From contig NC_092621.1 of assembly GCF_047663525.1 (NCBI RefSeq), positions 76,684,501-76,748,500 on the forward strand: 64,000 bases of DNA, in the 5' to 3' direction. This document shows positions 3,008 through 51,456 of the stretch, piece by piece; position 1 is the stretch's first letter; each line of letters starts with the position of its first letter. The stretch comes from Anas platyrhynchos (lineage: Eukaryota > Chordata > Aves > Anseriformes > Anatidae). The notes under the pieces are model-generated. The model saw nothing but the letters and a program-made list of their open reading frames with translations, was not told where the DNA came from and searched no databases. The translations under genes were made by a program, and so were the position numbers.

Positions 3008-6000
3008 ATGAGGCACTACGTGCTGTTCAACCCCTTGAAGCCTGAGGACCTTTCATTAATTAAGGAGCTCACCAGGAAAGGTAAGGCCCTGGGGGGCCCT
3101 TGTGGGAGCGCTGTTGTCGCAAAGACGGACGTGAGCTGTGGAAGGCTTGGGGCTGGGGCTGCCGGGGGAAGGTCTTCTGAAGGGTCCTGGCGTCTGCAAG
3201 GAGAGCCCTGAGTGCATCCAATGTGCTTCCCAAAGTGCATCTAACGCCTCCCCTCCCTCCCCAGGCCTGTCCTGGGCACAGTGTGGGCTTCTTGCAAGCT
3301 GGGCAAGGTTCAGGAGCTGTGCAGCAGCTTGCCCCAGCAGTGCGAGTGCTGGTTGAGGGCAAGGCAGAGCTTGATCGCACACCACTGTCACCTCTGTGGC
3401 GATGGGGGTTCAGACTTCATGGGCATTGCCAACTCACAGCATCTTGGCATCTGTCTTTCGCTTTCCAGAAATCGCCCAAGTGTGGAATAGTACGTGCAGA
3501 TACATCAGAAGGCAGCTGTTGCAGAAGAAGGTGAGCCTTACATCCTGCCCCTGGCCCATCTTGCCCCTTTGGACCTGGGCCACACAGCACCATCTTCAGG
3601 GCCAGCAAGTCACCCAGCACCCTTCCAGCTCTGCCCAGCACTGCCATTGGTCCCTCTTCTTGCTTGCGTTTTCAGGCGGTGAATATTGGAATCGGGACAT
3701 TTGCCGTTGTGTCAGCGAAGACCACTGGTGCGGATGGCAAGGCTATGGTTGTCCGGAAACCCATATTCAAGCCCTGCAGGTTCATGAAGATATTTTACAA
3801 GCTCAAGTGTGCTGAGAGCAGAATTCCTAGTAAGAAGATTTTTGCTTTGCTTTCCCTCTGCAGCCCTTGCCTTTTGCTCCATGCAGTCGTGCCTGTGCCA
3901 CGGCAGAGCAAAGTCTCTTGCACCATGGAGAGGCTGAGTGTGGGTGCACATACAGCATCCCAGAACATGCCCCTGCCCTGGGAGTCAGCCCCGTCTCTGC
4001 AGCTCATCCCACCCTCTAGCAGGATGCTCGTAGCACGTGGCAAAGCTTCCCTTGGCCTTCTGTTCCCCATCTGCTCTGCTCTGGAGATGTGGCCAAAGCT
4101 GGCAAGGACCTTCCCCGTGGCACAGCATTGCGCGAGGGCTGGGCGCTGCACACACTTCGTCTGTGAGTTTGCTGAACTGAGTGAGGACTGACATTGTTCC
4201 TTCATGGTTGTTTTCTAGTCGAGACATTCATTGATCCGCTGGACATTGAGAAAATTGCCGCACACATCTACTTCCGACCACAAATAGTAGAGCAGTGCAT
4301 CCACGAGACCCTGCTTCTCTACGCTGGTGGCCTCTTGGACAACCAGGATGTGGAATTCTTCTTCAAGGGCATTGGCATTCTTACTGTGCGAAGAAGAGTG
4401 GTCACCATGAACTATTACACTGATTTCCTGCTGGACGTGGATGACACACGCAATATGCGTGAAGCTCTTCTCACGGTGAGCGGATCATGTCTCCAGGGCA
4501 GCTTGCAGCTCTGGCAATGCTGTCAAAGCTCTCTCAAACTGCTTTCTCCTTGCCTGCCTCACCATTGCGTGAGACAGGCTGGAGGAGCTACACAAACTGT
4601 TGGTAGCACCTTGGCCTGTTTGTGTGAGGGGCTAATGACACCAAAGGACAAAGTGGGGCGAGGATTTTGGAGAGGTAGCCGTGTTCCTGAGCAGTGGGAA
4701 CGTTTGCTACCTTTGGGAGCAAGGAGCACATATCCTTGGCTTCTGCTGACGTGTGTCTGTCCTATTGCAGAACTCCAAGATGATGGATATGCTTGCCTTC
4801 AACGGCAAAAACAGATATACTCGCATCAGTGGAAATACGTTCCTCACACTACCAACGTGAGTGCCATCTCTTCTGCAACATCTGGCTGGCCAGGGGAGCG
4901 GGTGCCCAGCTCGTGCTTTGGGTGCAGCGTCTTCTTGATGCTTCTCTCCTGCCAGAGCGAGGCAGGACCAGCTCGTTCCTGGGAGGCCTTCCAGGTTGAC
5001 CCCCTGCTCAGTCAGCACTTCTGGGCAGTGCAGATGAAGCGGCCAGTCTGCAGTTGAGGGTCCCTGAGAGCGGTGGGAGGGTGTGAGGGGACAGCGAGGA
5101 GGACTTGTGTTGGCTCTGGCAGTAAGGCATAAGAAGCATGGGAAGAAGCTGCTGGAGGCTGTGGGGCCCCTCAGCTCGCACAGGCCATTGTGTCCTCCAG
5201 AGGCTCGGCAGTAGCTCCCAAAGAGCCCTGCCAGCAGCTTCTTAGTGTGGGGCACCAAGGGAACATAGTGCCTTATTTGACAACTGCTGTCTTCCTGTTT
5301 CCAGGCTTATACTTCGGGACCCACGACGCAAAGCAGTTTGCATCAAGCCCAGAAGGGATCCGCAGCCTTGGGGCATGGGTGGCCGAAAATGTAATGTCCC
5401 AGTGGGCTCCTGGCAGGGGGTTGCGTGTTCTCCTTTTGTCCTCGCAGGGCAGGAGAGCCAATGTTGATGTGTGGGGGATGCGAGAGAAGGCAGCTGTGTG
5501 GGATAAAATGCCCCAGGAGTGGTGGCTCCCAGCGGTGGCAATGAGTGTGGGTGGACATGGCTGAGCAGCTCTGCTGCTGCTGCCGCTCCCCTGCACAGAC
5601 ACAGAGGTGACATCGTGCTGTTCTCTTGCAGTGAGTGTGCTGGACCCGGTGGTGATGGCTCGGAGGAGGGTTTCTCAAGCCAAGAGGGCAGAGAAGAAAA
5701 GAAAGGAGGAGGCAGACAAGCAGCGTGAACAAGCCAGGTGAGCCTGCTGGAGAAGTGTTGTGGCGGAGTTAGGGGACTCGCTGTGCTCTTGCTGCTGGAG
5801 CTAAGATGTGAGCTGCGAGCCCGCCCTTTAGAAACTGCCTCCCATAAGCTAAACTTGCTGTGTCTTACTAGATTCCTGCCACCAATTCATGAGAGGTCTG
5901 AGGAGGAGCTGAAGAAACCAACACCTTCAGCTTATCAACGGTCATCCATAATCCCGGCTTGTTATAAGGACACTCCACCAATGGTACGCCATAGGCATTT

Positions 6001-9000
6001 GTCAGTCCCGTTTCACTTTGGGGGTTCCAGAGCAAGGCAGAAGCAGCAGCTGTTGCTGCCCACTGTCCCCATGCTCCTGCCTGTGCCCAGCCCCAGGAGA
6101 CTAACGCTGCGTGCGGATGTGTTTCCCTTGCCTGCAGGGAGTGCGCTCTGTGCGCGCTCAGATAGAAGACGGGCATGAATACTGATGGTCCACAGGCTCA
6201 GAAAGATTGAAGCTGAAATGTGGGACCTATGCTGTGTATGCATATGGAGTAGGAGCAAGGAGCATGGCATGTTTTCAGAGAGCCTAGGAAAAAATGCCCC
6301 CAGCAGGCTTTTGCCCTGCTCCTTGGGAGGGAGGGGAGCAGTGCAGGTCTCCGGCACGGCAGCGTTGCAGTCCCCACCTGGCCAGGCAGGTGCCTGCTGT
6401 CTGCGCGCTCCCCTGCACGTTGCCATGCGGGAGGAGCTGTTGCAGTTAGCAAAGGGCAGAGCCAGCAGAGAGCTGGGCATGGGCACGAATCTGCCAAGGG
6501 TCTGTACCTCCCTGCGAGGGATGTGTGCCCGCTGTACCTGCACCCTGAAGACTAAAGTGAGCCTGTGCGAGGCACCTGCCTTCACAGAAGCACACATGCA
6601 AGCAGAAAAGGCAGGCCCTGCCCTGGGCTCAGGGAGCAAGGGCTGCAGCCTTGAAAGCACCGTCTGTTGGAAGGAGACCCCTTTGGAGAGGGTGGCCTGC
6701 TGCTGCTCAGAGCCATTTCCTGCAGGAGCGCACTGGGAGTAGCAGCCTCAGCTGCTTGCAGCAGTTCTCTAGGAGACTGTCTTCTGGTTTTGCAGAAATA
6801 TTTCTGCCAAATACTCAAGTGCACACGAGTTCCTACCCACATCGTGAGAAACGAGTATGATCAGATGCTGAAGCGGAGAATAAAGGACAAGTTGAAAGGC
6901 CAAATGCCTACGAGCCTGAAGGCACCAAAGGGGTGGCAGCAAGTGCCACAGCAACCGAGGACAGCACAGAAAAAGTAAGTGTGCACCGGTCCAGCTGAGA
7001 CCCGGAAACAGCCCTGGAGGCCATGACCCGTGTTCTGGGGTTCCACGGCTTGTCGTCTTCCCCTTCCTCGTGACATGGGAAGGAGCTGGGTGCGATGGCA
7101 ACCCAGGGATCTCTCTGAACCCCACAACCGAGGCATGACACAGGTCCCAAGGGGAAGGCTGTGGGTGCAAAGGGCCAAGGCAGCTGTGTCTGATGGTGTG
7201 CGTCTGCTTGGGTTGTAACAACACACCCCACAGCTAGGGGCCTGAGTGAGGCCTTGGGACATTTCTGTCCCTTCTTCCCCACACAAGTGGAGGAAGTCAG
7301 ATGCTTTTGTGCCAGTGAGATGTTTCCCTGGGCTGCACTGAACGTGCTCATGCCAAAAGGCACTGGAAACACCAAAGGGACAGCTGTTGTCCTGGTGTGG
7401 TCGTGGTCTTCCTCCTGCAGAAGCACCTTGTGGTGCTGGAGATAAGGTGTGAGCTGCGAGCCCAGCTCTGAGTAAGTGCCTCCAAGTGTAGTCCCATATG
7501 CTAAGCCTGCTGTGTCTTTCTAGATTCCTGCCACCAATTTATGAGGAATCTGAGGAGGAGCTGAAGAAGCCAACACCTCCAGCTCATGCAAAGCCTAGGA
7601 CACCTGAGCACGGGGCTTTTGCTCAGGACACTTCAACACCGGTACGCCATAGGCATTTCCCAGCCCCGCTTCCCCTTGGAGATTCCAGAGCAGGACAGAA
7701 GCAGCAGATGTGGCTGCCCACCGTCCCTGTGCTCCTGCCTGTGCCCAGCCCCAGGAAACTAACGCTGCGTGCGGATGTGTTTCCCTTGCCTGCAGGGAGC
7801 GCGCTCTGTACGCGCTAAGATAGAAGAAAGAAGGCTCCGCATACTGAAGGCCCATAAGATGAAAAATCTTGAGGCTGAAACATGGAACCAATATGATTCC
7901 ACGCTTCAAAAGCTGATGATGGAGCACAAGCAGGTATGACATGCGTTCAGAGCCCCCAGGAAGAAAATGTCCCAGCAGGCATTTCCCCTGCTCCTTGGGA
8001 GGCAGGGGAGCAGTGCACGTCTCCGGCACGGCAGCATTGCAGTCCCCACCTGGCCAGGCAGCTGCCTGCTGTCTGCGTGCTCCCCTGCACGTTGCCATGC
8101 GGGAGGAGCTGTTGCAAGAAGCAAAGGGCAGAGCCAGCAGAGAGCTGGGCGTGGGCACGGGTCTGCCAAGGGTCTGTACCTCCCTGCGAGGGATGTGTGC
8201 CCGCTGTACCTGCACCCTGAAGGCTAAAGTGAGCCTGTGCGAGGCACCTGCCTCAGCAGAAGCACACACGCAAGCAGAAAAAGCAGGCCCTGCCCTGGGC
8301 TCAGGGAGCAAGGGCTGCAGCCTTGAAAGTGCTGGCTGTTGGAAAGAGACCCCATTGGAGAGGGTAGCCCGCAGCTGCTCACAGCCAGTTCCTGCAGCAG
8401 TGCACTGGGAGAGGCAGCCTCGGCTGCTTCCTGCAGTTCTCTAGGAGACTCTCTTCTGGTTTTGCAGAAAAACTTTCACCAGCCGATGGAGCATGACCAA
8501 CGTCCTTCATTCCAACTGAGAATGGAGTACAATGAGAAGCTGAAGGAGAGGATGAATCAGAATGACAAAGGCCAGAGCGGTGCGAGCCTGAAGGCACCAG
8601 AGGGGAGGCAGGAAGAGCCACAGCCCCTGAGGAGAGCACAGTCAGAGTAAGTGTGCACCGGTCCAGCTGAGGCTTGGGAACAGCCCTGGAGGCCCTGAGC
8701 CCCTGCACCATGTTCTGAGGTTTCCTGGGCTTGAAGTCCTCCCCTTCCTCTTGACACTGGAAGGAGATGGGTGCGATGCCACGCCCAGGGGCCTCTGGGC
8801 ATCCCCAGGCCTTTCCACGACCCAGGTCCTGAGGGGAAGGCTGTGGCTGCAAAGGGCCAAGGGGGCCGTGTCTGATGGTGTGCGTCTGCGTGGGACATAG
8901 CAACACATCCCACAGCTAGGGGCCTGAGTGAGGCCTTGGGACATTTCTGTCCCTTCTTCCCCACACAAGTGGAGGAAGTCAGATGGTTTTGTGCCAGTGA

Positions 9001-11976
9001 GATGTTTCCCTTGGCTGCACTGAATGTGCTCATGCCAAAAGGCACTGGAAACACCAAAGGGACAGCTGTTGTCCTGGTGTGGTCGTGGTCTTCCTCCTGC
9101 AGAAGCACCTTGTGGTGCTGGAGCTAAGTTGTGAGCTGCGAGCCCAGCTCTGAGTAAGTGCCTCCAAGTGTAGTCCCATAAGCTAAGCCTGCTGTGTCTT
9201 TTCAGATTCCTGCCACCAATTCCTGGGAGGTCTGAGGAGGAGCTGAAGAAACCAACCCCTCCAGCTCATCCAAAGCCTAAGACCCCTGAGTGCCAGGATA
9301 ATCCTCAGGACCCTCCAACATCGGTACGCCATAGGCATTTCCAAACCAGGTTTCCCCTTGGAGACTCCAGAGCAGGGCAGAAGCAGCAGATGTGGCGGCC
9401 CACCGTCCCTGTGCTCCTGCCTGTGCCCAGCCCCGGGAGACTAATGCTTCATGCGGTTGTGTTTCCCTTGCCTGCAGAGGTGGCGCTCTGTGCGTGCTCA
9501 GATGGAAGAAAGACGGTACAGAATACTCATGGCCCACAAGCGCACAGAGCTTGAAGATGAAATCGGTGGGGAATATGATGCAATCCTACGGAGTAGGAGC
9601 AGAGAGCGAAAACAGGTATGTCACGCATTCAGAGCCCCCAGGAAAGAAAAGCCCCAAGAAGGCAATTCCCCCACTCCTTGGGAGGGAGGGGAGCAGTGCA
9701 GGTCTCTGGCACGGCAGCGTTGCAGTCCCCACCTGGCCAGGCAGGTGCCTGCTGTCTGCGCGCTCCCCTGCACGTTGCCGTGCGGGAGGAGCTGTTGCAA
9801 GAAGCAAAGGGCAAAGCCAGCAGCGAGCGGGGCATGGGCACCGGTCTGCTGAGGGACCGTACCTCCCTGCAAGGGAGCAGTGTCCGTAGTATTTGTGCCC
9901 TGAAGACTAAAGTGAGCCTGTGCAAGGCACCTGCCTCAGCAGAAGCACACACGCAAGAAGAAAGAACAGGCCCTGCCCTGGGCTTAGGGAGCAAGGGCTG
10001 CAGCCTTGAAAGCACTGTCTGTTGGAAAGAGACCCCATTGGAGAGGGTAGCCCGCAGCTGCTCAGAGCCATTTCCTGCAGGACTACACTGGGAGGGTCAG
10101 CCTCAGCTCCTTGCAGCAGGTCTTTAGGAGACTCTCTTCTGGTTTTGCAGAACCCTGTCTACCACCTCCTGGAGGGTGACCAACGTCCTTCGAGCATTGT
10201 AAGAAGGGAGTATGACAAGAAGGTGAAGGACAGGATGAAAGAGAATGTCAAAGGCCAAAGCCCTGCAAGTAAGAAGGCACCAGATGCCTCGAAGGAAGAG
10301 ACAAAGCCAACGAAGGCAACACAGACAGAGTAAGTGTGCACTGGTCCAGCTGAGACCTGGAAACAGCCCTGGAGGCCCTGAGCCCCTGAGCCGTGTTCTG
10401 GGGTTCCACGGCTTGTCGTCTTCCCCTTCCTCATGACACGGGAAGGAGCTGGGTGTGATGCCAACCCAGGGACCTCTCTGCACCCCATCACTGAGGCATG
10501 ACACAGGTCCCGAGGGGAAGGCTGTGGGTGCAAAGGGCCAAGGGGGCCGTGTCTGATGGTGTGCGTCTGCACGGGTTGTAACAACACATCCCACAGCTAG
10601 GGGCCCGAGTGAGGCCTTGGGGCAATTCTGTCCCTTCTTCCCCACACAAGTGGAGGAAGTCAGATGCTTTTGTGCCAGTGAGATGTTTCCCTGGGCTGCA
10701 CTGAACGTGCTCATGCCAAAAGGCACTGGAAACACCAAAGGGACAGCTGTTGTCCTGGTGTGGTCGTGGTCTTCCTCCTGCAGAAGCACCTCGTGGTGCT
10801 GGAGCTAAGTTGTGAGCTGCGAGCCCAGCTCTGAGTAAGTGCCTCCAAGTGTACTCCCATAAACTAAGCCTGCTGTGTCTTTCTAGATTCCTGCCACCAA
10901 TTCCTGGGAGGTCTGAGGAGGAGCTGAAGAAGCCAAAACCTCCAGCTTACCCACAGACTAAACCCCGTGAGCACCTGTCTTTTGCTGCTCAGAAAACAGC
11001 AACATCGGTACGCCATAGGAATTTCCCAGCCCCGTTTCCCCTTGGAGATTCCAGAGCAGGGCAGAAGCAGCAGCTCTGGCTGCCCACCTGTCGCTGTGCT
11101 CCTGCCTGTGCCCAAGCTCCGGAGACTCATGCTGCATGCGATTGTGTTTTCCTTACCTGCAGGGAGTGCACTATATGCGTGTTCTAACAGAGGAAAAACG
11201 GGAACAAGCGCTGATGGCCCACAGGCTCAAAACACGACAAGCTGAAGCGTGGAAAGAATATGATTCCAAGACGCAGAAGCTGCTCTTTGAACGAAGAAAG
11301 GTATGACATGGATTCCGAGCCCCGAGGAAAAAAAAAACGCAAGCAGGCACTTCGCTCTCTCCTTGGGAGGGAGGGGAGCAGTGCAGGTCTCCGGCACGGC
11401 AGCACTGCAGTCCCCACCTGGCCAGGCAGCTGCCTGCTGTCTGCCCGCTCCCCTGCACGTTACCATGCAGGAGGAGCTGTTGCAGTGAGCAAAGGGCAAA
11501 GCCAGCAGCGAGCTGGGCATGGGCACGGGTCTGCCGAGGGACTGTACCTCCCTGCGAGGGATGAGTGCCCGCTGGACCTGCACTCTGAAGACTAAAGTGA
11601 GGCTGTGCGAGGCACCTGCCTTCACAGAAGCACACATGCAAGCAGAAAAGGCAGGCCCTGCCCTGGGCTCAGGGAGCAAGGGCTGCAGCCTTGAAAGTGC
11701 TGGCTGTTGGAAAGAGACCCCATTGGAGAGGGTAGCCCACAGCTGCTCAGAGGGAGTTCCTGCAGCAGTGCACTGGGAGGGGCAGCCTCAGCTCCTTGCA
11801 GCAGTTCTTTAGGAGACTCTCTTCTGGTTTTGCAGAACCCCATCAACTCCTTGCAGATGTGTGACCGACGTCCTTCCTTCCACATGAGAAAAGAATACGA
11901 TGAGAAGCTGAAGGAGAGGATGATGCCTGTCAGTGGCCAAATAAAGAGTGCTGGTGCGGGCTGCCAGCTGGACTGA
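3008..11976 (+). CDS. CCDC81-like: CCDC81-like protein, gene copy L (18 coding exons, 794 aa predicted)
   Basis: Predicted exons: 3008-3080, 3469-3530, 3676-3829, 4219-4475, 4771-4856, 5305-5390, 5632-5737, A1 5872-5983, C1 6796-6974, A2 7524-7641, B2 7796-7933, C2 8468-8646, A3 9206-9323, B3 9478-9615, C3 10151-10329, A4 10887-11007, B4 11163-11300, C4 11836-11976. All junctions are GT-AG and in phase; the sum is 2,385 nt. Residues about 10-100 form a first HU-like domain (EIAQVWNSTCRYIRRQL, then NIGIGTFAVV). Residues about 100-210 form a second (IVEQCIHETLLLYAG, then FFFKGIGILTVR). A basic coiled coil follows at about 245-275, then four charged modules. CCDC81 proteins are known as HU-superfamily members linked to centrosome and protein-protein roles rather than DNA packaging. 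This copy is longer than the roughly 650-residue mammalian protein because of the modules. The start is chosen for the in-frame exon 1 and a favourable context (A at -3). Expression is not shown. Confidence 0.85.
5872..7523 (+). repeat. Internal exon-triplet module 1 of gene L
   Basis: First of four tandem modules, 1,652 bp from the start of exon A1 to the start of A2. It has exon A (FLPPI, then SEEELKKP), a damaged exon B (see 6138-6268) and exon C1 (VRNEYDQMLKRRI). The introns are also homologous to those of the other modules, so the duplicated unit was genomic DNA and not only exons. It is the most diverged of the four. Confidence 0.9.
6138..6268 (+). pseudogene. Broken exon B of module 1 (gene L)
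   Basis: The acceptor (cctgcag) and first codons (GVRSVRAQIE) match the other B exons. A 4-nt deletion after gaag then shifts the frame and gives TGA at 6183-6185. The donor is also changed: where B2-B4 end in CAG or AAG followed by gtatg, this copy reads catggcatgttt. Because B exons are phase 0->0, skipping B1 joins A1 to C1 in frame. The transcript is inferred to do so. Confidence 0.8.
7524..9205 (+). repeat. Internal exon-triplet module 2 of gene L
   Basis: 1,682 bp, with three intact exons: A2 7524-7641 (118 nt, phase 2->0), B2 7796-7933 (138 nt, phase 0->0) and C2 8468-8646 (179 nt, phase 0->2). Exon B carries RSVRAKIEERR and exon C carries HDQRPSFQLRMEYNEKLKER. Both resemble heptad-rich segments of CCDC81 proteins. 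Confidence 0.92.
9206..10886 (+). repeat. Internal exon-triplet module 3 of gene L
   Basis: 1,681 bp; A3, B3 and C3 have exactly the same lengths and phases as module 2. Exon B3 starts RWRSVRAQMEERR instead of GARSVRA, and exon C3 has GDQRPSSIVRREYDKKVKDR. Intron sequence between B and C is strongly conserved with modules 2 and 4. Confidence 0.92.
10887..11976 (+). repeat. Internal exon-triplet module 4 of gene L (terminal)
   Basis: A4 is one codon longer (121 nt), B4 is 138 nt, and C4 is the last exon. C4 keeps the core CDRRPSFHMRKEYDEKLKERM and then diverges (MPVSGQIKSAG...) to a TGA at 11974-11976 instead of splicing on. A C-type exon has thus become the terminal exon. Confidence 0.9.
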
Positions 11977-12375
11977 CCACACTGCTCCCTGCATGGCCTT
12001 TTTTTTTGCACAAAGGAGGAGAGGAGAAGCCCTGCAACTCCCGGTACTGCTCCCATGGTTGCGAGCCACCTCTCCCGGTGGAGGGCAGCTCGTGCAGGGG
12101 GGCCTCAGGCCCTGCGGCAGAGGGCTTCTCGCAGTGTTGACGAGGACTATCTGCCACCAGGGACTTGCTGCTTTGCAACAATGGCCGGGAATGACAAGCA
12201 GGCTTCTGTCTCTGGGACACCTTCCTTGCCATCCGTTCTACCATTTGTGGGCCCACAGACCCATTCTCCTGCTTTGGGGATTCCTTTGGGGTTTTCTCCA
12301 CATGCCCTCTCAGCACTTTAGACCTTCACTAGAAGTACTCTGCTTTTCCAGGTTCAATGTGCAAAAAAAGAAAAG
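11977..12375 (+). other. Downstream block of gene L, unassigned
   Basis: Unique-looking sequence after the stop codon, present behind all four gene copies (R1 30639-31037, R2 44953-45351, R3 59267-59665). It is open in both directions for short stretches (12055-12321 plus; 11930-12316 minus), but I recognise no family. No AATAAA was seen in it. It could be 3' UTR or a remnant of another exon, since it runs directly into a decayed HU-type exon. Confidence 0.4.
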
Positions 12376-12456
12376 GTGGTTTTTTAGCCGAGGCACTATT
12401 TGCTCCGCTGGACTTTGAGCAGATTGCCTCAGACATCCACTTCAATATTGATCGAA
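12376..12456 (+). pseudogene. Decayed second-HU-domain exon (exon 4 homologue), left
   Basis: The stretch gtggttttttag then ccgaggcactatttgctccg parallels the acceptor and first codons of exon 4 (4206-4290). The readable peptide LFAPLDFEQIASDIHF aligns with FIDPLDIEKIAAHIYF. It stops abruptly at retroviral reverse-transcriptase sequence at about 12456. It is far more diverged from exon 4 than the gene copies are from each other, so it comes from an older paralogue. Confidence 0.75.
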
Positions 12457-15100: not shown

Positions 15101-16639
15101 GTGTGTGAGGAATGTTTTAACAAATATGCATATGGAGTGGTTCACACCTTTGGAAAGATTTGGGAGGAAAGAGGTTTAATTAATACGCAAGGGAAAAATC
15201 TTATACATCAAGAATTAATAAGGAAAATTTTAAAAGCATTAAGGGAACCTAAAGAAATAGCAGTAGTACATGTAAGAGGGCACCAGAAAGGATTGGAATA
15301 TCACACTAGGGGAAATAATCTAGCAGATAAAGAAGCTCAAGAAGCAGCTTTAAGAATTCAGGCTGCTAAAATCAATATAGTACAGGAAGAAGAAAGACAG
15401 GAAGAAGAAAAAGAAGAAGAAGAAAAGAGGTTCACTCCTGAAGAACGAACAAAACTGGAGAAAATAGGTGCTAAATTAGAACGAGGAAAATGGACATTGC
15501 CAGACGGACGAGAGATGTTACCGAAGGCTTATGCAAGACAAATATTGGAACGTTTGCATACACAAACACACTGGGGTACAAGAGCACTAAGTAATCATTT
15601 ACTTAAACAATTTGGTTGTATAGGGGTTTTTGAAATAGCAAAGCAAGTCACACAAGGTTGTTTAACTTGTCAGAAAATAAATAAGAAAATATTCCGACAG
15701 GCGGCAGCGGGAGGAAGAAAAACAGCATATCGGCCTTTTGAGAGAGTACAAGTTGATTTTACCGAACTACCTAAAGTAGGGAGGATCAAGTATTTGTTGG
15801 TAATTGTGGATCATTTAACACAATGGGTAGAAGCTTATCCTGTGGCACGAGCTACAGCACAAGTGGTGACAAAAATTTTATTGGAACACCTGATACCTAG
15901 ATATGGGATAATCCAGTACATTGATTCTGACCAAGGCACACACTTTACTTCTAAAATAATAAAATTATTATGTCAATCATTAGGTATTCAGTGGGAATAT
16001 CATACTCCGTGGCACCCACAAAGCTCAGGGAAAGTAGAGAGAATGAATCAAACAATAAAACAGCAATTGGCTAAATTAATGGTTGAGACACAAATGCCTT
16101 GGACTCGATGTTTACCATTGGCACTTTTAAACATAAGAACTAAATCACATAGTGAGACTGGATTATCACCATATGAAATGTTATATGGTATGCCTTATTC
16201 ACAGGGAATGCCTCTGGGAGACAATGTAGTTGAAGATCGTAGTATCCAGAAATATATAATTACTATTGGGAAAAGGTTGCAAGAACTAAGAGAAATTGGA
16301 ATACTGGTTCAAACACCACCTTTAGGATTTGCTATCCATAAAATACAACCAGGGGACGAGGTTTTAATAAAAACTTGGAAAGAAGAATCTTTACAGCCCC
16401 GGTGGGAGGGACCGTACCTTGTTTTACTTACCACCGAAACAGCTGTGAGAACAGCAGAAAGGGGTTGGACCCATGCATCCAGAGTAAAAGGACCAATAAA
16501 TACCAAAACTTGGAGGGTTGAGTCCGCTCCTGGGGAACTGAAATTAAAACTAAAAAGAACTAATATTCCGGAAATAGGGCATGCTTTACATGAAACACCA
16601 GAAGAAGGGGACAAGCAAGCCCGCAATGAAGAAAGGTGA
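15101..16639 (+). CDS. pol: ERV pol 3' part: RNase H C-terminus and integrase (512 aa open frame), left
   Basis: Open for 512 residues; the first Met is a convenience, since the 5' part of pol is missing. Residues about 8-87 are the end of RNase H (VVHVRGHQKG; last Asp in NNLADKEA, D76). A Glu-rich linker (95-109) follows. Integrase has an H-H-C-C zinc finger (H153, H157, C187, C190) and a complete D,D(35)E core: D219 in QVDFTE, D277 in DSDQGTHF, E313 in GKVERMN. A C-terminal DNA-binding-type segment (WTHASRVKGP) follows. Integrase joins viral DNA to host DNA. No stop or frameshift is seen within it. The class looks gammaretrovirus-like, but that is inference. Confidence 0.9.
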   Translation: MCEECFNKYAYGVVHTFGKIWEERGLINTQGKNLIHQELIRKILKALREPKEIAVVHVRGHQKGLEYHTRGNNLADKEAQEAALRIQAAKINIVQEEERQEEEKEEEEKRFTPEERTKLEKIGAKLERGKWTLPDGREMLPKAYARQILERLHTQTHWGTRALSNHLLKQFGCIGVFEIAKQVTQGCLTCQKINKKIFRQAAAGGRKTAYRPFERVQVDFTELPKVGRIKYLLVIVDHLTQWVEAYPVARATAQVVTKILLEHLIPRYGIIQYIDSDQGTHFTSKIIKLLCQSLGIQWEYHTPWHPQSSGKVERMNQTIKQQLAKLMVETQMPWTRCLPLALLNIRTKSHSETGLSPYEMLYGMPYSQGMPLGDNVVEDRSIQKYIITIGKRLQELREIGILVQTPPLGFAIHKIQPGDEVLIKTWKEESLQPRWEGPYLVLLTTETAVRTAERGWTHASRVKGPINTKTWRVESAPGELKLKLKRTNIPEIGHALHETPEEGDKQARNEER

Positions 16640-16983: not shown

Positions 16984-18564
16984 ATGTTATACTTCCTGGT
17001 ACTATTCTTACAAGGGCAACTGAGCCATGGAAATAATTTTTTCATTTTGGGGGAGGAAGTGGCTAAGGCTTTTAATCTTAGCAATTGCTGGGTTTGTGGA
17101 GGACCAGGAGAAGCTGAAAGTTGGCCTTGGGTAGCTGGCCCAGTCGAACCTAAGTGGTGGGTTAGTAATTTGAGTGAGGTTCATGATGGAACACAGTTCT
17201 GGAAAGAGGAGGAGGACCCGTGGCAATTGCATTCATCAAGAAAAGGTATATATTGTTTAAACCGAACAGGAACAGTAAAAGTAGGAGAAAGCATTTGTAA
17301 ATGGACTCTGTCCCCTGGATATGAATGTACTGATCCTGAATGTGGACCTATAAACTGTACAGCAAGTAAAGGGAAATGGAATACCACACATGTCCAGCTA
17401 AAAAATGGGACTTGGCTGAGATGCTCATCTAAGGAATTTTTTGGGCCTGGGTGTAAAGCCATGGCAAGAGCACAATCAAAAGGACAATTTGACGTTCAAA
17501 TTTTGAGTTGTCAGCGTGATAACACCACCAGTGAACAGCATGTGGTAAAAGTCTACCGCTGGAGGTGGCAAAATGAGAATGGGACACAAGTTTCTTTTAA
17601 ACATTTCTGGTCAGCTCGTAATATGACAAATCGTGAAGGAGAAATTAGTTGTAATTGTGAGTGGGAATCTAGTGCGGGGGCTTGGAAGTGTATGTATACA
17701 AGCATTAATGAGGCAAACATTGTAACGGGGCCTCTTGGTAATGAGAACACCTTGTATTTTCATGCCCCAAGGAATAAAAAGGAGTGGGACGGTCCTTTTC
17801 CAAATGGGGTGTGGGCTTTAAGAGGACATTATTGGATATGTGGCAAACGGGCCTACAAAAGGCTACCAAAAGATTTGTCAGGAGTATGCTACGTGGGATA
17901 CATAAGACCTTTATTCTTTTTATTATCTCAAATACAAGGGAATCACTTGGGAATAAAATTATATGATGATATTGATATTGATAGGGAGAAACGATACATT
18001 GATACCTCTTTAGCCGGAGGTAGTGCTCAAAAATGGAGAGAAAACGAATGGCCTCCTGAAAGAATCATACAGTATTATGGACCAGCTACATGGAATCCAA
18101 ATGAGGTAATATCTGGAGCTCGAGAACCTATTTATAATTTGAATCGCATAATTAGGTTACAAGCAGTTCTCGAATTAATAACTAATCAAACAGCAACAGC
18201 TCTGGATCTCTTAGCTGACCAATCTACCCAGATGAGGAATGCTATTTTCCAACATAGAATGGTCTTAGACTATTTACTAGCAGAAGAAGGGGGTGTGTGT
18301 GGTAAACTAAATTATTCTAATTGTTGCTTACGAATTGACGATAATGGGAAAGTAGTTAAAAAGATAACCAAGGAAATTAGAAAATTAGCCCACGTCCCAA
18401 CACAAACCTGGAAGGATATGGAATGGGATTTATTTTCATGGCTGCCTGGTGGACCATGGGTTAGAAGAATGTTATTTTTTTTTGTTATGTGGTGTAATGA
18501 CGTTATTATTTGTACCTTGTATGATACCTTGTTTTACATTATTAATACGCCGGGTGATAAATAG
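16984..18564 (+). CDS. env: ERV envelope glycoprotein, long open frame with altered 3' end, left
   Basis: 526 residues open. Residues 1-16 are a likely signal peptide, and CWVC (35-38) is a CXXC motif of the surface subunit. Many N-x-S/T sites follow. REKR near residue 335 could be a proprotein-convertase site, but the sequence after it is not hydrophobic, so the cleavage position is uncertain. A C-x7-CC motif lies at about 439-448, in the transmembrane subunit. The break: in the T-run at about 18473-18483 the frame changes. The hydrophobic anchor and tail continue in a different frame (within 18449-18751), while this frame ends early at 18564. The product as it stands probably lacks its normal anchor. 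This is an old viral gene with no evidence of expression. Confidence 0.85.
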
Positions 18565-20677: not shown

Positions 20678-20984
20678 TTGATGTCGGCATTAGAAAAGTA
20701 AAGGCTAGAGAAAGATAAAGGAAGTGTTAAAAGGTTTGCTGAAAGTGTTAAAGGTATTCGAAGTTGAATGAGCAGGGAAAGGTGATGTAGGCATTATCTA
20801 AGTAACAGTCTAGAAGTTTTGGTATATTTGCATATTTGCTGTGGTGTTTGTTCAGTTTCCCAAGCAACGGGGAGGGGGGAACAGCTTGCTCCACCAGGGG
20901 CCTCTCCAGCGGCCGCAGGGGGGCTTCGGCTCCAGAGCCTGGAGCGCCTCCTCCCCCTCCTTCTGCACTGACTTTGGTGTCTGC

Positions 20985-21012
20985 GGGGGGGAGGGGAGGA
21001 GGGGGGTGGGGG
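20985..21012 (+). other. G-quadruplex-forming motif in the palindrome spacer
   Basis: Successive G runs of 7, 4, 2, 6 and 5 separated by one or two bases. This fits a four-tract quadruplex pattern. It lies in the single-copy centre between the two 20.7 kb arms. Confidence 0.6.
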
Positions 21013-21195
21013 TTCTCACTCTCCCAACTGCTGTTGAGCAGCAGGTTTTTGTTTGTTTCTTTGTTTGTTTGTTTTTGTGGATGTGCTCTCACAGAGGCAT
21101 GGACTGTGTTGCTATGGCTTGGCTCTGGGCAGCAGTGGGCCCCTTTAGGGCCAGATGAAATTGTCCCTTATCTACCACGGGGAGGTTTCTGTTTT

Positions 21196-21229
21196 GTTTT
21201 GTTTTTTTTGTTTTTTTTTTTTTTTTTCA
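21196..21229. repeat. T-rich simple tract
   Basis: T runs broken by single G, next to (GTTT)n-like sequence at 21050-21077. Confidence 0.7.
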
Positions 21230-21692
21230 TGGGGGCTGCCACTGCAGTTTCCCACCCCCACACCTGTCACACCCCCCCCAAACCTTGCCATCAAACCCAA
21301 TACACTGGGGCAGCTAAGTCATTACTGACTTGTAAAGTATCAGGAATTAAATTAAGTAATGAAACCCTAAATGTGATGGGGGTAGAAGGGACTGGGATAA
21401 CAGTGCCACTTTTGGGGGATACCAAGCTGAGACTAGGGGATAAAATGATCACTGGGCAATTATTGTATGTATCCAAGGCAGGGACTAACTTGTTGGGAAG
21501 GGATTTGGTGATTAAATTGAGCATTCAACTAGTAAATTGTTAGACTGGAATAACAGTGTTATTAACGGAGTGCTCTCTGGCCCTGAGAACAAACATACAT
21601 GTATATTCACCTCTGACTGGAAAGACCCTGAAATGGGGGCGGAAGCAACAATATAGGTGGACAATTTTACCTCGGGGGTTTACAGGGCCACC

Positions 21693-22336
21693 TGTTATAA
21701 ATGGCTCAGGATTCAATTTAGGATTAAATGAAAAATAGGATTTATTAAAGTAATATAAAGGAATAGAGGTAAGCAAACAGCGCTGGGTGCACCGGGAGTC
21801 TCCGCTCCACCAGGACGCACACCAGTTACATCAAGCAGCTGATTTTTATGCACCTAGACTAATACATATTCATTACTACTTCTAAAAAAAGAGATTATTA
21901 AAATTAGCTTCCGGGGTCCGGTTCCTCCTACTGGAGCATGCGCATCAGTCTCCTCTGGGGGTCTCTAGGGGTCTTTCATGCTGAAGGCTCATAGTCTTCC
22001 TCTCACCCTTTGTACTTACTTGGCACTATCCCAAGTTTATGGAACACTCTCTGTACACTCTCCGCAGGTCTTGTCTCCCAACCGTCCTTCAGCTTCTTTT
22101 CTCTTCCTCTTAATCTCTTGGCCCCCCTGGCCAGATACCAAGGATCCCATAACAGTCACCAGCAGTCACCGGTTATTATCAGTTGTTCTGAAACTCCCAA
22201 ACAGGTTGGCGACTCACGAGCAATTAAAACATTCTTTCCCAGCTATTCACAGTCATCTACATAACATCTATAGCAGTGTTAAATCAATCTCGAAGAAGAC
22301 AGAAAAGAAAAACTGTAACTGTTAGAACTAGAAGTC
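21693..22336 (-). mobile_element. ERV LTR, minus orientation (spacer)
   Basis: Starts TGTTATAA on the plus strand (the LTR 3' end), with a reverse AATAAA at 21741-21746 and a reverse TATA-like tttttatgc near 21843. It shares the cggagactcccggtgcaccc-type R/U5 area with the other LTRs. The other end is not clear; sequence up to the arm boundary at 22336 is retroviral (the same stretch as about 18952-18971). Confidence 0.68.
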
Positions 22337-31037: not shown

Positions 31038-34000
31038 TCAGTCCAGCTGGCAGCCCGCACCAGCACTCTTTATTTGGCCACTGACAGGCATCATCCTCTC
31101 CTTCAGCTTCTCATCGTATTCTTTTCTCATGTGGAAGGAAGGACGTCGGTCACACATCTGCAAGGAGTTGATGGGGTTCTGCAAAACCAGAAGAGAGTCT
31201 CCTAAAGAACTGCTGCAAGGAGCTGAGGCTGCCCCTCCCAGTGCACTGCTGCAGGAACTCCCTCTGAGCAGCTGTGGGCTACCCTCTCCAATGGGGTCTC
31301 TTTCCAACAGCCAGCACTTTCAAGGCTGCAGCCCTTGCTCCCTGAGCCCAGGGCAGGGCCTGCCTTTTCTGCTTGCATGTGTGCTTCTGTGAAGGCAGGT
31401 GCCTCGCACAGCCTCACTTTAGTCTTCAGAGTGCAGGTCCAGCGGGCACTCATCCCTCGCAGGGAGGTACAGTCCCTCGGCAGACCCGTGCCCATGCCCA
31501 GCTCGCTGCTGGCTTTGCCCTTTGCTCACTGCAACAGCTCCTCCTGCATGGTAACGTGCAGGGGAGCGGGCAGACAGCAGGCAGCTGCCTGGCCAGGTGG
31601 GGACTGCAGTGCTGCCGTGCCGGAGACCTGCACTGCTCCCCTCCCTCCCAAGGAGAGAGCGAAGTGCCTGCTTGCGTTTTTTTTTTCCTCGGGGCTCGGA
31701 ATCCATGTCATACCTTTCTTCGTTCAAAGAGCAGCTTCTGCGTCTTGGAATCATATTCTTTCCACGCTTCAGCTTGTCGTGTTTTGAGCCTGTGGGCCAT
31801 CAGCGCTTGTTCCCGTTTTTCCTCTGTTAGAACACGCATATAGTGCACTCCCTGCAGGTAAGGAAAACACAATCGCATGCAGCATTAGTCTCCGGAGCTT
31901 GGGCACAGGCAGGAGCACAGCGACAGGTGGGCAGCCAGAGCTGCTGCTTCTGCCCTGCTCTGGAATCTCCAAGGGGAAACGGGGCTGGGAAATGCCTATG
32001 GCGTACCGATGTTGCTGTTTTCTGAGCAGCAAAAGACAGGTGCTCACGGGGTTTAGTCTGTGGGTAAGCTGGAGGTTTTGGCTTCTTCAGCTCCTCCTCA
32101 GACCTCCCAGGAATTGGTGGCAGGAATCTAGAAAGACACAGCAGGCTTAGTTTATGGGAGTACACTTGGAGGCACTTACTCAGAGCTGGGCTCGCAGCTC
32201 ACAACTTAGCTCCAGCACCACGAGGTGTTTCTGCAGGAGGAAGACCACGACCACACCAGGACAACAGCTGTCCCTTTGGTGTTTCCAGTGCCTTTTGGCA
32301 TGAGCACGTTCAGTGCAGCCCAGGGAAACATCTCACTGGCACAAAAGCATCTGACTTCCTCCACTTGTGTGGGGAAGAAGGGACAGAATTGCCCCAAGGC
32401 CTCACTCGGGCCCCTAGCTGTGGGATGTGTTGTTACAACCCGTGCAGACGCACACCATCAGACACGGCCCCCTTGGCCCTTTGCACCCACAGCCTTCCCC
32501 TCGGGACCTGTGTCATGCCTCAGTGATGGGGTGCAGAGAGGTCCCTGGGTTGGCATCACACCCAGCTCCTTCCCGTGTCATGAGGAAGGGGAAGACGACA
32601 AGCCGTGGAACCCCAGAACACGGCTCAGGGGCTCAGGGCCTCCAGGGCTGTTTCCAGGTCTCAGCTGGACCAGTGCACACTTACTCTGTCTGTGTTGCCT
32701 TCGTTGGCTTTGTCTCTTCCTTCGAGGCATCTGGTGCCTTCTTACTTGCAGGGCTTTGGCCTTTGACATTCTCTTTCATCCTGTCCTTCACCTTCTTGTC
32801 ATACTCCCTTCTTACAATGCTCGAAGGACGTTGGTCACCCTCCAGGAGGTGGTAGACAGGGTTCTGCAAAACCAGAAGAGAGTCTCCTAAAGACCTGCTG
32901 CAAGGAGCTGAGGCTGACCCTCCCAGTGTAGTCCTGCAGGAAATGGCTCTGAGCAGCTGCGGGCTACCCTCTCCAATGGGGTCTCTTTCCAACAGACAGT
33001 GCTTTCAAGGCTGCAGCCCTTGCTCCCTAAGCCCAGGGCAGGGCCTGTTCTTTCTTCTTGCGTGTGTGCTTCTGCTGAGGCAGGTGCCTTGCACAGGCTC
33101 ACTTTAGTCTTCAGGGCACAAATACTACGGACACTGCTCCCTTGCAGGGAGGTACGGTCCCTCAGCAGACCGGTGCCCATGCCCCGCTCGCTGCTGGCTT
33201 TGCCCTTTGCTTCTTGCAACAGCTCCTCCCGCACGGCAACGTGCAGGGGAGCGCGCAGACAGCAGGCACCTGCCTGGCCAGGTGGGGACTGCAACGCTGC
33301 CGTGCCAGAGACCTGCACTGCTCCCCTCCCTCCCAAGGAGTGGGGGAATTGCCTTCTTGGGGCTTTTCTTTCCTGGGGGCTCTGAATGCGTGACATACCT
33401 GTTTTCGCTCTCTGCTCCTACTCCGTAGGATTGCATCATATTCCCCACCGATTTCATCTTCAAGCTCTGTGCGCTTGTGGGCCATGAGTATTCTGTACCG
33501 TCTTTCTTCCATCTGAGCACGCACAGAGCGCCACCTCTGCAGGCAAGGGAAACACAACCGCATGAAGCATTAGTCTCCCGGGGCTGGGCACAGGCAGGAG
33601 CACAGGGACGGTGGGCCGCCACATCTGCTGCTTCTGCCCTGCTCTGGAGTCTCCAAGGGGAAACCTGGTTTGGAAATGCCTATGGCGTACCGATGTTGGA
33701 GGGTCCTGAGGATTATCCTGGCACTCAGGGGTCTTAGGCTTTGGATGAGCTGGAGGGGTTGGTTTCTTCAGCTCCTCCTCAGACCTCCCAGGAATTGGTG
33801 GCAGGAATCTGAAAAGACACAGCAGGCTTAGCTTATGGGACTACACTTGGAGGCACTTACTCAGAGCTGGGCTCGCAGCTCACAACTTAGCTCCAGCACC
33901 ACAAGGTGCTTCTGCAGGAGGAAGACCACGACCACACCAGGACAACAGCTGTCCCTTTGGTGTTTCCAGTGCCTTTTGGCATGAGCACATTCAGTGCAGC

Positions 34001-37000
34001 CAAGGGAAACATCTCACTGGCACAAAACCATCTGACTTCCTCCACTTGTGTGGGGAAGAAGGGACAGAAATGTCCCAAGGCCTCACTCAGGCCCCTAGCT
34101 GTGGGATGTGTTGCTATGTCCCACGCAGACGCACACCATCAGACACGGCCCCCTTGGCCCTTTGCAGCCACAGCCTTCCCCTCAGGACCTGGGTCGTGGA
34201 AAGGCCTGGGGATGCCCAGAGGCCCCTGGGCGTGGCATCGCACCCATCTCCTTCCAGTGTCAAGAGGAAGGGGAGGACTTCAAGCCCAGGAAACCTCAGA
34301 ACATGGTGCAGGGGCTCAGGGCCTCCAGGGCTGTTCCCAAGCCTCAGCTGGACCGGTGCACACTTACTCTGACTGTGCTCTCCTCAGGGGCTGTGGCTCT
34401 TCCTGCCTCCCCTCTGGTGCCTTCAGGCTCGCACCGCTCTGGCCTTTGTCATTCTGATTCATCCTCTCCTTCAGCTTCTCATTGTACTCCATTCTCAGTT
34501 GGAATGAAGGACGTTGGTCATGCTCCATCGGCTGGTGAAAGTTTTTCTGCAAAACCAGAAGAGAGTCTCCTAGAGAACTGCAGGAAGCAGCCGAGGCTGC
34601 CTCTCCCAGTGCACTGCTGCAGGAACTGGCTGTGAGCAGCTGCGGGCTACCCTCTCCAATGGGGTCTCTTTCCAACAGCCAGCACTTTCAAGGCTGCAGC
34701 CCTTGCTCCCTGAGCCCAGGGCAGGGCCTGCTTTTTCTGCTTGCGTGTGTGCTTCTGCTGAGGCAGGTGCCTCGCACAGGCTCACTTTAGCCTTCAGGGT
34801 GCAGGTCCAGCAGGCACTCATCCCTCGCAGGGAGGTACAGACCCTTGGCAGACCCGTGCCCACGCCCAGCTCTCTGCTGGCTCTGCCCTTTGCTTCTTGC
34901 AACAGCTCCTCCCGCATGGCAACGTGCAGGGGAGCACGCAGACAGCAGGCAGCTGCCTGGCCAGGTGGGGACTGCAACGCTGCCGTGCCGGTGACCTGCA
35001 CTGCTCCCCTGCCTCCCAAGGAGCAGGGGAAATGCCTGCTGGGACATTTTCTTCCTGGGGGCTCTGAACGCATGTCATACCTGCTTGTGCTCCATCATCA
35101 GCTTTTGAAGCGTGGAATCATATTGGTTCCATGTTTCAGCCTCAAGATTTTTCATCTTATGGGCCTTCAGTATGCGGAGCCTTCTTTCTTCTATCTTAGC
35201 GCGTACAGAGCGCGCTCCCTGCAGGCAAGGGAAACACATCCGCACGCAGCGTTAGTTTCCTGGGGCTGGGCACAGGCAGGAGCACAGGGACGGTGGGCAG
35301 CCACATCTGCTGCTTCTGTCCTGCTCTGGAATCTCCAAGGGGAAGCGGGGCTGGGAAATGCCTATGGCGTACCGGTGTTGAAGTGTCCTGAGCAAAAGCC
35401 CCGTGCTCAGGTGTCCTAGGCTTTGCATGAGCTGGAGGTGTTGGCTTCTTCAGCTCCTCCTCAGATTCCTCATAAATTGGTGGCAGGAATCTAGAAAGAC
35501 ACAGCAGGCTTAGCATATGGGACTACACTTGGAGGCACTTACTCAGAGCTGGGCTCGCAGCTCACACCTTATCTCCAGCACCACAAGGTGCTTCTGGAGG
35601 AGGAAGACCACGACCACACCAGGACAACAGCTGTCCCTTTGGTGTTTCCAGTGCCTTTTGGCATGAGCACGTTCAGTGCAGCCCAGGGAAACATCTCACT
35701 GGCACAAAAGCATCTGACTTCCTCCACTTGTGTGGGGAAGAAGGGACAGAAATGTCCCAAGGCCTCACTCAGGCCCCTAGCTGTGGGGTGTGTTGTTACA
35801 ACCCAAGCAGACGCACACCATCAGACACAGCTGCCTTGGCCCTTTGCACCCACAGCCTTCCCCTTGGGACCTGTGTCATGCCTCGGTTGTGGGGTTCAGA
35901 GAGATCCCTGGGTTGCCATCGCACCCAGCTCCTTCCCATGTCACGAGGAAGGGGAAGACGACAAGCCGTGGAACCCCAGAACACGGGTCATGGCCTCCAG
36001 GGCTGTTTCCGGGTCTCAGCTGGACCGGTGCACACTTACTTTTTCTGTGCTGTCCTCGGTTGCTGTGGCACTTGCTGCCACCCCTTTGGTGCCTTCAGGC
36101 TCGTAGGCATTTGGCCTTTCAACTTGTCCTTTATTCTCCGCTTCAGCATCTGATCATACTCCTTTCTCACGATGTGGGTAGGAACTCGTGTGCACTTGAG
36201 TATTTGGCAGAAATATTTCTGCAAAACCAGAAGAGAGTCTCCTAGAGAACTGCTGCAAGCAGCTGAGGCTGCTACTCCCAGTGCGCTCCTGCAGGAAATG
36301 GCTCTGAGCAGCAGCAGGCCACCCTCTCCAAAGGGGTCTCCTTCCAACAGACGGTGCTTTCAAGGCTGCAGCCCTTGCTCCCTGAGCCCAGGGCAGGGCC
36401 TGCCTTTTCTGCTTGCATGTGTGCTTCTGTGAAGGCAGGTGCCTCGCACAGGCTCACTTTAGTCTTCAGGGTGCAGGTACAGCGGGCACACATCCCTCGC
36501 AGGGAGGTACAGACCCTTGGCAGATTCGTGCCCATGCCCAGCTCTCTGCTGGCTCTGCCCTTTGCTAACTGCAACAGCTCCTCCCGCATGGCAACGTGCA
36601 GGGGAGCGCGCAGACAGCAGGCACCTGCCTGGCCAGGTGGGGACTGCAACGCTGCCGTGCCGGAGACCTGCACTGCTCCCCTCCCTCCCAAGGAGCAGGG
36701 CAAAAGCCTGCTGGGGGCATTTTTTCCTAGGCTCTCTGAAAACATGCCATGCTCCTTGCTCCTACTCCATATGCATACACAGCATAGGTCCCACATTTCA
36801 GCTTCAATCTTTCTGAGCCTGTGGACCATCAGTATTCATGCCCGTCTTCTATCTGAGCGCGCACAGAGCGCACTCCCTGCAGGCAAGGGAAACACATCCG
36901 CACGCAGCGTTAGTCTCCTGGGGCTGGGCACAGGCAGGAGCATGGGGACAGTGGGCAGCAACAGCTGCTGCTTCTGCCTTGCTCTGGAACCCCCAAAGTG

Positions 37001-37142
37001 AAACGGGACTGACAAATGCCTATGGCGTACCATTGGTGGAGTGTCCTTATAACAAGCCGGGATTATGGATGACCGTTGATAAGCTGAAGGTGTTGGTTTC
37101 TTCAGCTCCTCCTCAGACCTCTCATGAATTGGTGGCAGGAAT
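31038..37142 (-). repeat. Four exon-triplet modules of gene R1
   Basis: Module 1 is 35491-37142, module 2 is 33809-35490, module 3 is 32128-33808 and module 4 is 31038-32127, on the minus strand. Boundaries mirror those in L, with the same module number and order. Confidence 0.9.
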
Positions 37143-43015: not shown

Positions 43016-43932
43016 CCATGCCCCAAGGCTGCGGATCTCTTCTGGGCTTGATGCAAATCGGTTTGTGTTGTGGGTCCTGAAGTATAAGCTGGCAGCAGGC
43101 ACCCGCCCTCTTTATTTGGCAGGTCACCCTTTGGAAGGCGCTCTTCACACCCCTTGCTGACAGCTCTCACACTGCAAAGGGGGCAGCGCCAAGAGGAGAG
43201 GTGGGAGCTTCTTCTCGAGTGTCCCTGGTACTGGTGCCGGCGCCTGCTCCAGCTTTTGGTATTGGTGCTGATGGCTACGGCCTCTGCAGCTGGAAGCTGC
43301 AGGGCCGCTTGCGGTTTCCTGGTGTGGACGGCACGCCCTGGGCCTTGTCACAGTTGTCCAAGAGCCTCGTCTTCTCCCCTTTCCTGCAGGATCCAAAGGA
43401 AAGGCCATCAGTTTGGGTGGGGAAGAAGGGACAGAATTGTCCCAAGGCGTCAGTCAGTCCCCTAGCTGTGGGGTGTGTTGAAGTGAGGCTGTTCCCAGGC
43501 TTCAGCTGGACCGGTGCACACTTACTCTGTCTGTGCTCTCCTCAGGGGCTGTGGCTCTTCCTGCCTGCCCTCTGGTGCCTTCAGGCTCGCACCGCTCTGG
43601 CCTTTGTCATTCTGATTCATCCTCTCCTTCAGCTTCTCATTGTACTCCATTCTCAGTTGGAATGAAGGACGTTGGTCATGCTCCATCGGCTGGTGAAAGT
43701 TTTTCTGCAAAACCAGAAGAGAGTCTCCTAGAGAACTGCCTCCGAGGCTGCCTCTCCCAGTGTACTGCTGCAGGAACTGGCTGTGAGCAGCTGCGGGCTA
43801 CCCTCTCCAATGGGGTCTCTTTCCAACAGCCAGCACTTTCAAGGTGTGATAAATTAGTGGGGGTTTGTTCATTGTCTTTGAGGAATTTGGAGAATCTGCT
43901 GAGGAGATAAGGTTGTACAATTTAACGGCCTT
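43016..43932 (-). pseudogene. Scrambled CCDC81-like fragment between units 1 and 2
   Basis: On the minus strand it holds, out of normal order: an exon C2 copy with its upstream intron (43526-43850), intron pieces (about 43400-43520), a piece like the end of exon C4 (about 43087-43127, keeping AATAAA), and an exon 6-like piece (43014-43089). The stretch 43128-43380 is not recognised. The C4 and exon 6 pieces are diverged from the live copies, while the C2 piece is nearly identical. Confidence 0.7.
43526..43704 (-). pseudogene. Orphan exon C2 with intact splice signals
   Basis: 179 nt, the full length of exon C2, with acceptor (ttttgcag) and donor (gtaagt) kept and the frame open. It codes AQTE at its end where gene copies have AQSE. 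It lies about 1.65 kb downstream of the R2 stop codon on the same strand, so it could be spliced into read-through transcripts; that is speculation. Confidence 0.7.
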
Positions 43933-51300: not shown

Positions 51301-51456
51301 GAACCCCCAAAGTGAAACGGGACTGACAAATGCCTATGGCGTACCATTGGTGGAGTGTCCTTATAACAAGCCGGGATTATGGATGACCGTTGATAAGCTG
51401 AAGGTGTTGGTTTCTTCAGCTCCTCCTCAGACCTCTCATGAATTGGTGGCAGGAAT
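45352..51456 (-). repeat. Four exon-triplet modules of gene R2
   Basis: Module 1 is 49805-51456, module 2 is 48123-49804, module 3 is 46442-48122 and module 4 is 45352-46441, on the minus strand. Confidence 0.9.

Follow-up and report, generated by a model that had tools for sequence, protein, structure and literature searches.

A duck CCDC81-like gene with tandemly amplified exon triplets, similar introns and diverged coding exons

How a single gene can hold four tandem copies of one exon triplet whose introns are far more alike than its exons is the question raised by a CCDC81-like gene in the window, that is, the whole 64,000-nucleotide stretch of Anas platyrhynchos DNA that was analysed. 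Copy A of this gene lies on the forward strand at 3008-11976, and in our exon model seven 5′ exons are followed by an A-B-C triplet that occurs four times. The 5′ exons (e1 to e7 at 3008-3080, 3469-3530, 3676-3829, 4219-4475, 4771-4856, 5305-5390 and 5632-5737, together spanning 3008-5737) encode two CCDC81 HU domains and a basic linker. A TATA-like sequence, CTATAAATACC, at 2768-2778 on the same strand is a putative promoter element. The triplets, again on the forward strand, consist of A1 (5872-5983), a dead B1 (6138-6272, the end being approximate) and C1 (6796-6974); A2 (7524-7641), B2 (7796-7933) and C2 (8468-8646); A3 (9206-9323), B3 (9478-9615) and C3 (10151-10329); and A4 (10887-11007), B4 (11163-11300) and C4 (11836-11976). 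All internal exons except B1 have AG/GT borders. The stop codon TGA occupies 11974-11976, and its final base is where the sequence-only reading had ended the feature. Beyond the stop codon lies a relic (12375-12443) that is 80% identical to the region of the e4 start (4206-4274).

The A exons start at 5872, 7524, 9206 and 10887, giving spacings of 1652, 1682 and 1681 bp with introns included, and the phases are 2 to 0 for A, 0 to 0 for B and 0 to 2 for C; both the period of about 1.68 kb and the phases had been read correctly from the sequence. Exon A measures 112, 118, 118 and 121 nt in units 1 to 4, exon B 138 nt in units 2-4 and exon C 179 nt in units 1-3, so that a full unit comprises 118+138+179 = 435 nt or 145 residues. 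Because the unit is entered and left in phase 2, the frame holds for any number of units, as had been proposed. In B1 a 4-bp deletion causes a frameshift into an in-frame stop, and no donor was found at the position where B2-B4 have one. Since exon B is of phase 0-0, the loss of B1 is harmless to the frame: the A1-C1 junction is in frame and leaves unit 1 with 97 residues. Unit 4 is shortened to 132 residues by the stop inside C4. The predicted protein thus has 794 residues, 275 before unit 1 and then 97, 145, 145 and 132. Four tandem copies are present, as claimed, but they amount to three working, B-containing triplets and one degenerate A1-C1 unit, and the claimed length of about 145 residues per unit applies to units 2 and 3.

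The assignment to the CCDC81 family was borne out by Pfam, in which HU-CCDC81_euk_1 (PF14908; E=1.2e-9, 38.5 bits) and HU-CCDC81_euk_2 (PF18289; E=3.1e-17, 62.8 bits) both exceeded their cut-offs of 26.1. A search of solved structures retrieved the CCDC81 chain 8snb_1K (E=2.5e-15 with the single sequence, 2.5e-33 with a profile), the match covering residues 10-191 and reflecting shared N-terminal HU domains; CCDC81B of 8v3l was matched weakly by the profile (E=0.084). We take 8snb to be a sea urchin sperm structure. Neither the CCDC81 chain of 8snb nor those of Tetrahymena gave a significant match to the A-B-C unit. The tail of the 8snb chain bears a visible but weak resemblance to the unit; 27 of 2000 shuffles scored as high in this post hoc comparison, for which the stretch was picked after the fact, and homology serves as no more than a lead. 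The Tetrahymena relatives IJ34 and CCDC81b are described at the inner junction of doublet microtubules (PMC10105768, PMC11961760), and the table of one review lists CCDC81 as a partner of HOOK1, mostly a haploid male germ cell protein (PMC8471410). From these reports we infer that the duck gene may have an axonemal role, in cilia or sperm. A CCDC81-like goose gene, LOC106049719, appears in a list of top differentially expressed genes of the hypothalamus (table P-value 0.088; PMC11450866); as it may be a different locus, it was discounted.

The sequence-only reading had regarded the units as uniformly helical and as candidates for coiled coils. An AlphaFold2 model built from the Anas acuta protein and 15 relatives was weak over its whole length, even in the HU part (mean pLDDT 47.8). 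In this low-confidence model, the lysine- and arginine-rich B exons of units 2-4 form single long helices of 45, 40 and 55 residues, with ten-residue means that are mostly 63-84; each C contributes a helix 18-21 residues long, and A and the C tail are for the most part unstructured. About 61-66 of the 145 residues are helical in units 2 and 3, which does not support a uniform helix. A simple hydrophobic-periodicity test found no heptad periodicity in B2, B3 or B4, and a coiled coil in the B exons is not favoured. On the model, the tail is more likely to consist of linkers and single helices than to be a coiled coil.

Three levels of amplification had been proposed, and all three were recovered: units in the gene, genes in a 14.3-kb tandem array (29619-49686 against 43933-64000, 99.71% identical), and an inverted repeat. 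The left arm of the latter (1-20677, + strand) and the right arm (22337-43015, − strand) are separated by a spacer of 1659 bp (20678-22336), and their identity of 99.87% over 20.7 kb, in the assembly as given, lies above the 99% that characterizes palindromic amplicons. Besides copy A, the window holds three further copies on the reverse strand: copy B (31038-40006, inverted), copy C (45352-54320) and copy D (59666-64000), the last cut by the window end and mapped from exon B2 to the stop. The 794-aa frame is intact in the three complete copies, A, B and C. Relative to copy A, the exons of copy B differ at two positions (one residue-changing) and those of copy C at four (all four residue-changing); among A, B and C, the gene has five exon and 22 intron differences, the B1 relic being counted as intron. 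A 358-nt piece that matches the C2 exon region (8321-8685) at 96-97% identity lies by itself between gene copies at 43487-43844 and again at 57801-58158. Beside copy A, within the inverted-repeated arm and at the meeting point of the two gene arrays, are the open reading frames of a gammaretrovirus-like endogenous element (15101-16639 and 16984-18564), with an integrase that has an MLV-type C-terminal domain and an envelope-like match just under the Pfam cut-off. Scanning viral contigs with a 24-base intron pattern gave no match.

The units differ from one another in a manner that the sequence-only reading had not mentioned. Among units 2-4, the B exons differ by 36-44% and the C exons by 30-39%, as against 9-12% for the three introns (5-17% when unit 1 is included). 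The dead B1 has diverged from B2-B4 by 33-47%, whereas its flanking introns differ from their counterparts by 8-17%. Exon A is divided in itself: across the four units, its first ~58 nt are intron-like (5-14%) and the remainder resembles B and C (23-48%). The divergence changes steeply near the exon edges; of 1131 circular shifts of the B and C labels, only the unshifted one reached the observed contrast, and among units 2-4 the A-B and B-C introns stayed at or below 15% in every 130-nt stretch. Short intron peaks do occur, of 30% at nt 31-60 of the B-C intron (units 2-4) and of 25% at nt 121-180 of the C-A intron (units 1-3), so that divergence is not perfectly limited to exons.

Synonymous divergence (dS) was 0.62-0.97 for B, 0.36-0.82 for the first 30 codons of C, 0.15-0.19 for A and 0.44-0.46 for the joined exons. 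Among codons of B and of the first 30 of C that encode the same residue, 28 of 95 differ, compared with 225 of 2065 intron sites (P=1.4e-6 with the pairs pooled), a comparison of codons with single sites that is not like-for-like and in which neither pairs nor sites are independent. As synonymous sites are also raised, fast protein change alone is insufficient to explain the contrast. The dN/dS between units for A, B and C joined was 0.73-0.92, with bootstrap intervals of dN-dS that include zero; given this ratio near 1 and the raised synonymous sites, the view that positive selection by itself shaped B and C was set aside as unproven. The ratios for exon A alone (1.3-2.5) each rest on just 3-5 synonymous differences.

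The introns also carry signals of exchange between units. In the A-B and B-C introns, 28 informative sites fall into eight runs against 18.9 expected, and none of 5000 shuffles gave as few. The longest shared intron run, of 17 sites, joins units 1 and 2 (0 of 2000 shuffles); the longest-run P values of the other five unit pairs, uncorrected, were 0.0065, 0.045, 0.10, 0.26 and 0.63. Taken by itself, the C-A intron showed no significant sign of conversion (P 0.14-0.38); the A and C exons gave P values of 0.03-0.24, with one pair at 0.033 uncorrected. For five of the 24 differences that separate gene copies, both alleles also occur in other units, where chance would give 4.2% (P=0.003). Two of these five are neighbouring bases in copy D, for which exon differences only were counted, and the chance level is taken from introns. 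These two bases lie in exon A3 of copy D (62317-62439), correspond to 9222-9223 of copy A and match exon A2, and they are likely to represent a recent conversion between units; the both-allele differences as a whole suggest that such conversion is recent. The 5′ part of exon A is lineage-specific rather than positional, reading FLPPI in all four duck units and FEPPI in units 3-4 of the goose protein P0002. As judged from these sequence patterns, the introns are homogenised across units and most exon sequence is spared.

How old the units are can be read from the relatives. The closest protein, P0001 of Anas acuta, is 96% identical over the whole query and departs from the exon model at the e3-e4 join alone, where it has seven additional residues and the residues at the border are changed; goose and swan proteins show 52-69% identity over 53-99% of the query. 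Unit numbers were determined by scanning 47 proteins from three protein searches, together with the window, with a B+C profile, unit 1 being counted by its C part. The five waterfowl proteins, all gene predictions, hold four units in P0001 and in P0002 of Anser cygnoides and two units in P0003, P0004 and P0005, which are two swan proteins and one further goose protein and may be real loci or alternative models. P0001 and P0002 share the four-unit layout without B1, including A1 and C1, and the close relatives are thus not all single-module. A unit was found in 27 of the other 42 proteins and none in 15. One unit is held by 25 of the 27, although five of these (P0018, P0028, P0045, P0046 and P0047) match the profile partly and several are partial gene models; the two units of P0007 and P0010 are split by HU sequence, so these proteins look like fused neighbouring genes. 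The comparison of module number that had been suggested hence yields one unit in the proteins seen from Galliformes, Neoaves and Rhea, apart from the two fused-looking ones. Among those without a unit, the JGI metagenome protein P0025 matches 11% of the query at 98% and is presumably duck DNA.

The tree was built from 37 B+C stretches, unit 1 being left out because it lacks B, and the waterfowl units form one clade in it with support of 95/86 (85/76 in a smaller earlier tree). Unit 3 of duck, goose and swan groups at 99/96 and unit 4 at 100/100; support is lower for the grouping of unit 2 from the ducks and goose (92/87), which does not take in the unit of goose P0005. Between duck and goose or swan, units at the same position are 56-73% identical and units at different positions 42-60%. 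Duck and goose copies of units 2, 3 and 4 cluster with their positional counterparts, which indicates that the amplification is older than the duck-goose split, and among the birds seen it is, by these protein comparisons, waterfowl-specific. No B1 residues occur in the four waterfowl proteins with unit 1 (P0001, P0002, P0003 and P0005), and the loss of B1 is therefore probably as old as the amplification. A KGEKTRLL-like C-terminus is found in goose and swan (P0002-P0005) and several other birds; it is absent from the duck gene and the pintail protein because C4 ends early.

Taken together, we consider it likely that an anseriform triplet duplication within the gene, conversion of the introns, divergence of B and C and a later amplification of the whole gene jointly account for the locus. 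A single ancestral A-B-C triplet would have been tandemly duplicated in the anseriform lineage, before ducks and geese separated. Unequal exchange between introns could then add or remove whole units in frame, the triplet being phase 2 at both ends. Gene conversion between units would have maintained the similarity of the introns and of the 5′-most ~58 nt of exon A, and the rest of A, together with B and C, would have stayed different between units and specific to their position. The divergence of the exons was most likely begun by selection for distinct units, and mismatch in the diverged exons may now exclude conversion tracts. The whole gene would later have been multiplied into the 14.3-kb tandem array and the inverted repeat. 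Its product, presumably expressed, would most likely be seated on ciliary or sperm axonemal microtubules by the HU domains and have a tail, made up of the units, that consists of proline-rich linkers and single charged helices.

The dead exon bears on what keeps the exons apart. B1 is non-coding and yet diverged, so selection explains it less well than it explains B2-B4 and C, whereas a mismatch barrier would explain both. That B1 has stayed diverged suggests a divergence barrier besides selection, although a restored B1 might also be harmful. A stronger reading, in which the introns convert, the coding islands are shut out and selection is no longer needed, draws on the same diverged B1; we hold it tentatively, as possible but short of probable.

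It might instead be supposed that homogenisation never took place, that the units are young, with intron divergence giving their neutral age, and that B and C evolved fast through positive selection and clustered mutations. Codon position 2 of exon B is indeed about as diverged as position 3 (15-25 against 18-22 of 46), the branch of duck unit 4 is long (0.78), and a moderate age, with no conversion, could be roughly compatible with introns that have diverged by 5-12%. Nevertheless, synonymous sites are raised as well, the intron sites lie in blocky tracts, variation in the 5′ part of exon A follows lineage and not position, and both alleles of the five gene-copy differences recur in other units more often than by chance; we regard this explanation as unlikely. 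Pseudogene decay, with a unit structure devoid of meaning at the protein level, would suit the dead B1 and the ending of C4 without the terminal exon found in goose, swan and several other birds. It is hard to reconcile with a frame intact in three complete copies and a protein of 96% identity predicted in pintail, and we give it little chance. Replacement of B and C by conversion from diverged paralogues, with introns left from a recent duplication, would produce steep changes near exon edges, and stray gene pieces such as that at 43487-43844 (96% to the C2 region) lie nearby; repeated switching would, however, scramble both the duck-goose orthology by position and the single waterfowl clade, which makes this the explanation we can hardly credit.

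Parts of this arrangement are known from other genes. Human Y-linked DAZ has tandem 2.4-kb units within the gene, of 24 residues each, and occurs in four copies (PMC7016774). In-gene units, multiple gene copies and inverted arms are all found in the duck, with no homology being claimed: it is another gene in another lineage, the unit comprises three exons and 145 residues instead of 24 residues, and divergence is far greater in the exons than in the introns. The DAZ copies are placed in palindromes. In spidroin genes, iterated introns between repeat-coding exons are alike within a gene (PMC9779670); the authors tie these introns to homogenised coding repeats, whereas the duck B and C exons are not homogenised. 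Some gene pairs of the snake small serum protein array, with KN of 0.05-0.06 in introns and KA/KS >1, likewise combine little-diverged introns with fast-changing coding sequence (PMC6609765), and positive selection and clustered mutations have been argued for some snake gene arrays. The contrast there lies between genes; in the duck it lies between units within one gene, with conversion tracts and a dN/dS not >1. In our searches of the open-licence literature we found no paper on these CCDC81 units and no precedent for homogenised introns combined with diverged exons in one gene that contains a dead exon as a control.

The contigs of the relatives are in many cases 67-120 Mb long, others being shorter and one crane protein lying on a 168-Mb contig; the chicken contig, of 86,044,486 bp, we take to be chromosome Z. 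A search of the open-licence literature returned nothing that joins CCDC81 to the Z chromosome; where it was combined with the W chromosome and birds, none of the matches listed held CCDC81, and the few papers on CCDC81 and chicken did not, by their listing, concern this family. The locus provides an avian example, perhaps Z-linked, of nested amplification like that on the human Y. Homogenisation is the usual expectation for repeated genes, and the duck gene joins converting introns to mostly non-converting exons. With a dead exon as internal control and relatives that carry one to four units, it can separate selection from mismatch-blocked conversion. If the exons are indeed spared by their own divergence, that divergence would itself lock the identity of the units, and a ciliary or sperm-tail protein could keep distinct segments in a recombining array.
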